A DNA stretch of 33,273 nt. Origin: Bacteroidota bacterium (GTDB lineage: Bacteria > Bacteroidota > Bacteroidia > Bacteroidales > GCA-2711565). Location of the stretch: NCBI GenBank assembly GCA_002711565.1, contig PARP01000030.1, forward strand, positions 1-33,273, read 5' to 3'. Made by a program: the position numbers and the translations under genes. How positions within the stretch are numbered: the first letter of the stretch is position 1; the number at the start of each line of letters is the position of its first letter. This document shows positions 20,330 to 22,545 of the stretch, piece by piece. The notes below the pieces were generated by a model. The model had not been told where the DNA came from. It made no database searches and worked only from the letters and a program-made list of their open reading frames with translations.

Positions 20330-20695
20330 TTATAAATTTGACTTCGTGGTCTTTTGTATTGTGCCTAAAACTCTTATTATTTGATCAATTTTGGTTAATA
20401 AAAAGCCTGCGCTTTCATTATCTAAATTGTTAGAATCTTTAAGTAATCTAATCCAATATCGAGTTTCTCTTGCCTCTTTGTATGCAATGGTGATTTTATT
20501 AAGAAAATCCTTCTTAGAATAAGCTCCTATTGACTCTTCAACATTAGCTCCAATTGATGTAGAAGATTTAACCAATTGATTATATATAGATGCTTTATCG
20601 TAATCTTGTTTACGGCAAAATCTCTTAATAATCTCTAGTGAGAAATTATAAGTAAGCTCTTGAATTAAGTTTTGTGATTTCATGTTTTTATACAT
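20330..20695 (-). CDS. Four-helix-bundle protein (S23 / 23S rRNA intervening-sequence family)
   Basis: A 121-residue protein, or 117 if started at the second ATG (20683, MKSQNLIQ). It is helical throughout with the family's typical blocks: KASIYNQLVKSSTSIGANVEES, split around IGANVEE, then FLNKITIAYKEARETRYWIRLL. The family occurs inside some 23S rRNA genes and as free-standing genes, and is structurally related to the Avd accessory protein of diversity-generating retroelements; its function is not known. No reverse transcriptase or rRNA is present here. It lies between two complementary heptamer arrays, and its start is close behind a terminator, which suggests an inserted unit. Confidence 0.85.
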   Translation of the reverse strand: MYKNMKSQNLIQELTYNFSLEIIKRFCRKQDYDKASIYNQLVKSSTSIGANVEESIGAYSKKDFLNKITIAYKEARETRYWIRLLKDSNNLDNESAGFLLTKIDQIIRVLGTIQKTTKSNL

Positions 20696-20763: not shown

Positions 20764-20805
20764 TAATCCGTAATCCGTAATCCGTAATCCGTAATCCGTA
20801 ATCCG
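20764..20805. repeat. TAATCCG heptamer array (right arm of inverted pair)
   Basis: Six perfect copies of TAATCCG, ending 6 bp before the stop codon of the repeat-protein gene. Its reverse complement, CGGATTA in tandem, matches the array at 20302-20329. Confidence 0.95.
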
Positions 20806-20811
20806 AGATTT

Positions 20812-22056
20812 CTATTCATTCACAAAATAAACACTGATCCCGTAATTCTCCTGATCATGTGGAGCTGAAGAGTTCCAGCTTCTGTATGAATGTGAGCCAT
20901 CCGATTCGAAATATAAGGTGTAATCACCTTTTGGAAGCAAAATCGTACCATCAAACATTCTGTTCTTTCTTGCACCACCTGCATGTTCTGTCTTGCGGTA
21001 AGTCATTTCCCAAACAATTCTTCCGGTATCACGATCTTTGATCCAACCATAGTCGTACATATCTCCACCATCACCTTCACCAATAGCGTAGATTCTAACT
21101 TTAGTGTCTTCTTCTAGCGTGAAGTGTTGGCGTTCATAATCATTATTTCTGATTCGTAAGATCTGTGAAACCAGGTTTTTATCTTTAATGTCTTCTGCGT
21201 CTGTGAGTTTGAAATATTCATTCTCTTCAGCATAAATACTTAAACCGTATAAATGTGGAAGCATAGGTGGAGAATCATTCCAATCTCTGTAAGAATGTGA
21301 ACCATCAGTCACATAATATGCGATATAATTTCCTTCTTCAAGTCGGATCTCTTCATTGATCATTCTGTTCTTATCTGCACCTCCGGCATATTCAGAATAT
21401 CTTTCTTTGAATTCCCAAACTTTTTCATGATTATCCATATTGATGATCCAACCATAATCGGCCATATCACCACGATTTGCTCTTTCACCAATAGAATAGA
21501 TTCTAACATCCATATCTTTTTCTAATTTGAATGCCTGACTCATATAGTCATCATCTCTGGCTTTTGTGAGCTTAAGAGAAAAATGATCTGACTTTTCAGC
21601 CTCTCCAATATGACGTTCATCTTTACCTTCAACCCAGATCGAAATTCCCCATGATTGTGGATCGTATGGAGGAAGAACATTCCAATGGTCATAAGAGTGA
21701 CTATCATCAGTAACATAGATAAGTGTGTATTCCCCTTCAGGAAGAGTAATGATCTCAGAAACCATTTTATTCTTTTTCCCTCCGCCTGCTTTTTCAAAGC
21801 GGGTCATTTTTGTTGGCCAAACTTTTTCATAAGTTTTAGCATCAAGGATCCATGCAAAGTCGAATTGCTCTCTTGCATATTGCTCTCCAACACCATAAAT
21901 ATTTAAATCAACTTCCTTCTCAACTTTAAAGCTCTTTCTGATCAATTCATTATCTCCGGCTCTCATTACCGAGAAGATAGTATTCTCTGCAAAACTGTCC
22001 AGATTGTCATAAAGGTCAATAGGAGTAAAATCTGTGTCTACAGCCGTAAGAGTCAT
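20812..22056 (-). CDS. C-terminal part of a split secreted repeat protein (repeats 2-4)
   Basis: A 414-residue frame that I do not recognise as a named family. It holds three repeats of about 108 residues (about 36-143, 170-277, 306-414). Each has a [AY][WI]-rich strand ending FAWILD / YGWI, a KVW-type strand, an AGG-x-x-KN-[KR]-M turn, an L-x-x-G-x-Y strand, and the signature SHSY-x-x-WN followed by a [WY]G[IL]S strand. The frame continues without shift from the upstream part and is separated from it by one TGA. It has no signal peptide of its own, so if translated separately by re-initiation it would stay in the cytoplasm. It ends in TAG, followed by the TAATCCG array and a terminator. Confidence 0.7.
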   Translation of the reverse strand: MTLTAVDTDFTPIDLYDNLDSFAENTIFSVMRAGDNELIRKSFKVEKEVDLNIYGVGEQYAREQFDFAWILDAKTYEKVWPTKMTRFEKAGGGKKNKMVSEIITLPEGEYTLIYVTDDSHSYDHWNVLPPYDPQSWGISIWVEGKDERHIGEAEKSDHFSLKLTKARDDDYMSQAFKLEKDMDVRIYSIGERANRGDMADYGWIINMDNHEKVWEFKERYSEYAGGADKNRMINEEIRLEEGNYIAYYVTDGSHSYRDWNDSPPMLPHLYGLSIYAEENEYFKLTDAEDIKDKNLVSQILRIRNNDYERQHFTLEEDTKVRIYAIGEGDGGDMYDYGWIKDRDTGRIVWEMTYRKTEHAGGARKNRMFDGTILLPKGDYTLYFESDGSHSYRSWNSSAPHDQENYGISVYFVNE

Positions 22057-22059
22057 TCA
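22057..22059 (-). other. In-frame TGA splitting the repeat-protein gene
   Basis: The codon after Tyr 162 is TGA, and the very next codon is an in-frame ATG. Repeats 2, 3 and 4 all have Gly at the aligned position (WGIS, YGLS, YGIS). GGA to TGA is a single-base change, so the site is best read as a nonsense mutation, a sequencing error or a recoded stop. Confidence 0.8.
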
Positions 22060-22545
22060 ATACCTCGAAAACCTCTTATTGTTTTCATATTCTCTGCGGT
22101 CATCACCACTAAAGATCCAGTCGAATACATCTCCAAGATTGAAATTGTTCTCATTGTTATTATCTAGTCCTGCTGCGTAGTAAACTTCATATTCTCCAGC
22201 TTGCAGTTCGATCTCAGTATCAAATCTGAAGCGACCATCGGCTCTTCTATAGTCGAAATATCTGTCATTTTCTTCATCTAAAAGACTCCAAACTACCTTA
22301 CGGGTTTTTGCATCAAGGATCCATCCATAGAAAAGTACATCATTACCTAGTCTTTCATAAAGACCACCCGTTCCTTCAATTTGAACAGTAGAAGCCTTAT
22401 CGAGTTTAAAAGCGTCAGCATCAACACGCCCTATTCTGCGATATCCTACCTCAAGAGTGTTATCCTGAGCCATTGTATTTTCTGTAGCAATAAGTCCAAA
22501 CGCGAAAAGTACAGATAAAAAGAGTTTAGTTATTTTCATAAACAT
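22057..22545 (-). CDS. N-terminal part of a split secreted repeat protein (signal peptide and repeat 1)
   Basis: A 162-residue frame with a Sec signal peptide; a start at the third codon (MKITKLFLSVLFAFG) is equally good, and cleavage is likely near TMAQ. Residues about 36-162 form a divergent first copy of the repeat found in the downstream part: AFKLDKASTVQIEG, a FYGWILDAKTRKVVW strand pair and LQAGEYEVYY. The SHSY-x-x-WN signature is replaced by an acidic, Asn-rich insert. It stops at TGA within what should be the last strand of the repeat. Joined to the next frame the product would be 577 residues. The function is unknown; it is probably periplasmic or surface-exposed. Confidence 0.72.
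   Translation of the reverse strand: MFMKITKLFLSVLFAFGLIATENTMAQDNTLEVGYRRIGRVDADAFKLDKASTVQIEGTGGLYERLGNDVLFYGWILDAKTRKVVWSLLDEENDRYFDYRRADGRFRFDTEIELQAGEYEVYYAAGLDNNNENNFNLGDVFDWIFSGDDRREYENNKRFSRY

Follow-up and report, generated by a model that had tools for sequence, protein, structure and literature searches.

Two adjacent reading frames on the minus strand of a Bacteroidota genome raise the question of what a single in-frame TGA means when it cuts the gene of a putative secreted repeat protein. It could separate two genes, be read as an amino acid, act as a switch, be a recent mutation, or be an error of the assembly. The frames lie in a window of 33,273 nucleotides, that is, the whole stretch of DNA analysed here (contig PARP01000030.1 of assembly GCA_002711565.1). 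The genome is metagenome-derived, with 2.07 Mb on 74 contigs and a completeness of 72%.

Layout of the interrupted gene

The two minus-strand frames were located at 22057-22545 (162 amino acids, ending in TGA) and at 20812-22056 (414 amino acids, ending in TAG). Both were in the same phase, and the TGA at 22057-22059, which is present in the deposited sequence, was the sole separator between them, exactly where an earlier note on this DNA had placed it. Reading through gave a protein of 577 residues with the TGA as residue 163. Codon usage was gene-like on both sides of the TGA. The gene for the putative secreted protein was therefore annotated at 20815-22545 of the minus strand, with its TAG at 20812-20814, from the frames, the uninterrupted relatives and the structural model together. 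The first half opened with a signal-peptide-like N-terminus, MFMKITKLFLSVLFAFGLIATENTMAQ, read from the sequence as residues 1-26 (22468-22545, minus strand) and predicted as a helix at residues 2-25. The second half had none, as the earlier note had also said.

TGA was a rare terminator in this genome. It ended 53 of the 1050 long frames (about 5%), and a check of 31 genes in the window showed no TGA end besides those of comM and the interruption, which agreed with the earlier count for the window. Two other elements were observed next to the gene. A perfect TAATCCG tandem array of six copies was located at 20764-20805, just downstream of the stop of the gene, and a similar type of repeat, translated, followed a gene end on contig C38 (near 13427). 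A gene of the 23S rRNA-intervening-sequence protein family (PF05635) was found at 20330-20695, between the split gene and a urocanate-hydratase-like gene.

Predicted structure and family of the protein

The AlphaFold2 model of the protein, with the stop read through, had a mean pLDDT of 83 and showed a signal-peptide-like helix followed by four beta-rich domains. On the minus strand, domain 1 was assigned to residues 30-168 (22042-22458), domain 2 to residues 191-304 approximately (21634-21975), domain 3 to about 324-439 (21229-21576) and domain 4 to about 458-577 (20815-21174). Domain 1 was the most diverged repeat, with an identity below that of the other domains and a low-confidence insertion at about 130-150. 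The final strand of this domain spans residues 163-168 in the model, and the TGA codon is at its first position. The match between the repeats at this strand, RYxMTLT with SWGISI, LYGLSI and NYGISV, was seen in the sequence as the earlier note had described it, and the TGA position corresponded to Gly in the other three repeats.

No family in Pfam or NCBIfam reached its cut-off for the four-repeat protein, and a profile search against solved chains gave no match. The fold search against the PDB returned generic tandem beta-sandwiches, such as CUB and neuropilin domains, with low TM-scores, and an assignment of function from the fold was dropped on this ground. Over its full length, the protein could be aligned at 33-58% identity to family members of Bacteroidota, Melioribacteraceae, Calditrichota, KSB1, Zixiibacteriota and Gemmatimonadota. 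According to the model and these alignments, it is an exported protein of four predicted tandem beta-sandwich-like domains, belonging to a family that extends across the FCB group and has no Pfam or NCBIfam model. The neighbouring genes were read by eye. MacA-like/ABC and two-component genes were seen in two Melioribacteraceae loci (L010 and L013), and HlyD/RND-like genes in L008. Since the neighbours differed between lineages, they did not fix the function. We infer only that it would most likely act in the cell envelope, as an exported protein with a binding or structural role.

Orthologues at the interrupted site

The protein was encoded in two congeners, with 63% identity downstream of the TGA, and at 29 further loci, in other Bacteroidota, Melioribacteraceae, Calditrichota, KSB1, Zixiibacteriota, Gemmatimonadota and others. 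Three other congeners (G003-G005) gave no match, which meant that the gene is not universal even within the genus. The alignment across the site included both congeners and 28 of the 29 other loci, L035 being omitted because its matched frame was partial. All 30 relatives had one unbroken frame across the site and none had the stop. The split is thus peculiar to this genome. The earlier note had named orthologues consistently divided into two genes as the sign against a single gene, and the opposite was found, each compared orthologue being one frame. The comparison of sequences showed that the two minus-strand frames are one gene of 577 codons.

The residue at the site was variable. In the column of the TGA the nearest three relatives had Ser (TCG), and the 30 relatives together had F in six, S, K and G in four each, Y in three, M and T in two each, and five singletons, with no Cys among them. 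The earlier note had placed the stop on a conserved Gly. This was correct between the repeats of the protein itself, but it did not hold among the orthologues. The derivation of the stop from GGA by one base, which the note had drawn from this Gly, also lost its ground, because Gly was present in just 4 of 30 orthologues and the nearest three had TCG.

A second start could turn the cut gene into two proteins, with termination at the TGA and a restart at the adjoining ATG (22054-22056, minus strand) that would give a second product of 414 amino acids. This ATG, codon 1 of the second frame, follows the TGA directly, and a GAGG motif lies about 8 bases before it. However, it aligned with an ordinary Met of the nearest orthologues (L003, L004 and L008) and so gave no evidence for a separate start. 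Split orthologues numbered zero, the second half would be without a signal peptide, and the last strand would be missing from domain 1. Two separate proteins were thus considered very improbable.

Downstream of the TGA, the codon changes were mostly at third positions. The identity to the outgroup L009 in this part was 48.8% for the interrupted protein, 46.0% for the intact congener copy (G002) and 45.7% for the intact L008. The interrupted copy was on a par with the intact ones, and together with the third-position changes this gave no sign of long-standing decay. The sequence comparison argues against an old pseudogene, and a recent one would be compatible with the absent decay.

Proposed switching and programmed readthrough at the site

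Phase-like on/off variation, which the earlier note had also offered, would mean that a surface protein is switched at codon 163. Surface proteins in general often undergo on/off switching, and the protein here is predicted to be secreted and belongs to a repeat family. However, no simple-sequence tract, tandem repeat or inverted repeat was present at the TGA site, and the only array, the six TAATCCG copies, lies downstream of the gene. A switching mechanism that works by a point mutation to TGA is not known. Such switching was regarded as extremely improbable.

Programmed readthrough or recoding was judged very unlikely. A stop conserved in orthologues would be expected for it, and the stop was present in 0 of 30 relatives. 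A readthrough hairpin was considered and rejected, as folding of the sequence downstream of the TGA gave no stimulatory structure beyond chance (z-score +1.04). Selenocysteine insertion was also rejected. No SelB was found above the cut-off and no tRNA-Sec above the gathering score in this incomplete genome, and the column had no Cys. The earlier suggestion of readthrough did not stand against these results, nor against the cuts by TGA, TAG and TAA at unrelated residues elsewhere in the genome that are described below.

Other interrupted genes and the reading of UGA

Coding sequence was scanned for in-frame stops over 1.96 Mb of the 2.07 Mb, read in stretches in a scan that was incomplete, and the candidates were checked by families, solved structures and congeners. 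Homology-based counting used 277 kb of the congener G002 and missed most of the genome. Ten genes in the 1.96 Mb, namely this gene and nine others, were cut by one in-frame stop, six by TGA, three by TAG and one by TAA. The other TGA cases were a MATE gene (C7:6142, named from Pfam; Gly in 5 of 5 congeners), an AMP nucleosidase (C15:17657, named from a PDB match; Gly in the solved structure 1ybf), an FGE-like gene (C39:2099, named from Pfam) and two PQQ genes. The PQQ gene on C55 (C55:21453, named from Pfam) had Trp (TGG) at the site in every congener copy, and that on C51 (C51:20949, named from a paralogue alignment) had Ser/Asn. The TGA of the FGE-like gene is probably at a Trp position, judging by a known motif. 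TAG interrupted ClpX (C25:38087, named from a PDB match), a TPR/CHAT-like protein (C2:37424, with CHAT read from the sequence by eye) and an FtsX permease (C2:988, named from Pfam). TAA interrupted a TolC-like protein (OEP, C24:4406, named from Pfam). A further TGA between two short frames (C65:17489) was dropped as probably not coding. In addition, a gene read from its sequence as PriA-like was frameshifted relative to the congener G002 at C50, around 35014-35021, in a comparison of 116 reference frames.

These cases allowed us to weigh whether the organism makes the full-length protein by reading through UGA or by partly recoding it, with Gly and Trp as examples of the inserted residue. TGA accounted for 6 of the 10 interruptions against 25% expected (p 0.02; p 0.05 without the case found via a paralogue), and it ends only about one long frame in twenty. 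Gly was the residue at two of the TGAs, and Trp at one and probably at a second. An assignment of UGA to Gly was attractive at first, when the next two TGA splits fell on invariant Gly in MATE and AMP nucleosidase. It was dropped once the PQQ genes showed Trp and Ser/Asn sites, interruptions by TAG and TAA appeared, and RF2 proved intact. Gly was the replaced residue only on C7 and C15, with Trp on C55, Ser/Asn on C51 and Ser here, and an assignment to Trp did not agree with the invariant Gly on C7 and C15. Since the residues at the TGAs differ between genes, no single recoding fits.

The release factor gave a consistent result. A loss of RF2 would accompany an assignment of UGA to Gly, and prfB was present at C52:5815-6828, with RF2 above the family cut-off and with the GGQ and SPF motifs. 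The gene carries AGGAGG-TAC-CTT-TGA-C, the programmed +1 autoregulatory frameshift site, and this kind of site depends on UGA termination. The 1.96 Mb of this 72% complete genome yielded 16 tRNAs, none of them with a UCA anticodon. On the tRNAs, we also observed the same tRNA-Gly(GCC)/tRNA-Leu(TAA) pair with the same spacing at C10:23786-23985 and C11:52877-53076, which may reflect a repeated locus or contig ends that overlap.

With the controlled frameshift site kept, the replaced residue varying and TAG and TAA interruptions occurring as well, readthrough or partial recoding of UGA had very little probability. A related proposal was that UGA is a leaky rare stop in this Bacteroidota lineage, so that premature UGAs are tolerated, accumulate faster than UAA and still allow some full-length product. 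If true, this would be an early stage toward codon reassignment; we gave it hardly any credence. The TGA excess is a weak anomaly and not evidence of function.

Sequence quality of the draft genome

The draft contained 247 runs of N, and 243 of them were isolated single Ns. In confident coding frames, the lone Ns fell on codon positions 1, 2 and 3 in numbers of 69, 67 and 75 (chi-square p 0.78). This even spread indicated a technical failure, because natural polymorphism would crowd position 3, and strain polymorphism was rejected as their origin. In the 277 kb sampled from the congener, N runs numbered 4, a density about one ninth of that in this draft. No N was located inside the window, and the next base after its end was a lone N (C11:33274).

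The number of interrupted genes agreed with the rate of lone Ns. A random substitution in this coding sequence creates a stop in about 5.0% of cases, so ten nonsense codons require 1.24e-4 substitutions per base. The rate of lone Ns was also 1.24e-4, and miscalls at this rate would give about ten nonsense codons. The equality of the two rates is partly luck, because the scan was incomplete; the match is approximate, and agreement in order of magnitude is sufficient.

These results suggested that the TGA at 22057-22059 is probably a wrong consensus base in a low-quality metagenome-derived genome. A stop private to the assembly was found together with other random interruptions and uncalled bases. 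By inference, we count this base among the errors of the draft. The locus would then be an ordinary gene with a stray single-base stop private to this assembly. The over-representation of TGA is not predicted by plain random error and speaks somewhat against this reading, and the lack of Ns in the window also counts against it.

A genuine recent nonsense mutation in the strain was considered possible but rather unlikely. If the stop is real in the organism, it would end translation within the final strand of domain 1, and a product of 162 residues and a fresh pseudogene would result. In favour of this reading, the base call of the TGA is unambiguous and Ns are absent nearby, the part after the stop is without decay, as expected of a recent event, and the protein is dispensable, because several congeners (G003-G005) had no match. 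However, nine more genes, ClpX and AMP nucleosidase among them, were cut in the same genome, the PriA-like gene was frameshifted, and technical Ns occurred at an equal rate, which made sequence quality the easier explanation. A recent nonsense mutation and an assembly error were both among the readings of the earlier note, which was right in this respect.

A wrong base at this site carries a caution for annotation. A technical error rate of about 1 base in 8000 produces just such a lone in-frame TGA in a single draft, even where the residue seems conserved when the repeats are compared. The assembly holds about ten such genes, and reads would be needed before any of them is annotated as split, recoded or phase-variable. 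As a by-product, the analysis yielded a putative secreted four-repeat protein family of the FCB group outside the Pfam and NCBIfam models.

Comparison with known systems

UGA is translated as glycine in Gracilibacteria and Absconditabacteria (PMC8629427). The present genome resembles them in having in-frame TGA at two clear Gly positions, in MATE and AMP nucleosidase. However, RF2 was present here, TGA was a true terminator, no tRNA-UCA was found among the tRNAs of the scanned sequence, the other TGAs were at Trp or Ser, and only six such TGAs occurred in 1.96 Mb. In the same study, the presence of RF2 with no UCA tRNA led to UGA being judged a stop in two outlying species (PMC8629427). UGA is translated as tryptophan in Mycoplasmatales, Entomoplasmatales and some insect endosymbionts (PMC8629427). 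The likeness to these codes consisted of a TGA on a clear Trp position in PQQ (C55) and another on a probable one in the FGE-like gene (C39), in a low-GC genome where TGA is rare. In contrast to them, RF2 was present and other TGAs were on invariant Gly.

Private nonsense calls in draft and metagenome-assembled genomes were also compared. The locus differed from them in the mild TGA excess, and a true mutation keeps some probability here. It resembled them in its isolated single-base stop, its whole relatives, and the other cut genes and lone Ns of the same draft. With the secreted four-repeat family of the FCB group, this copy shared the whole protein length, and the stop was in this copy only.
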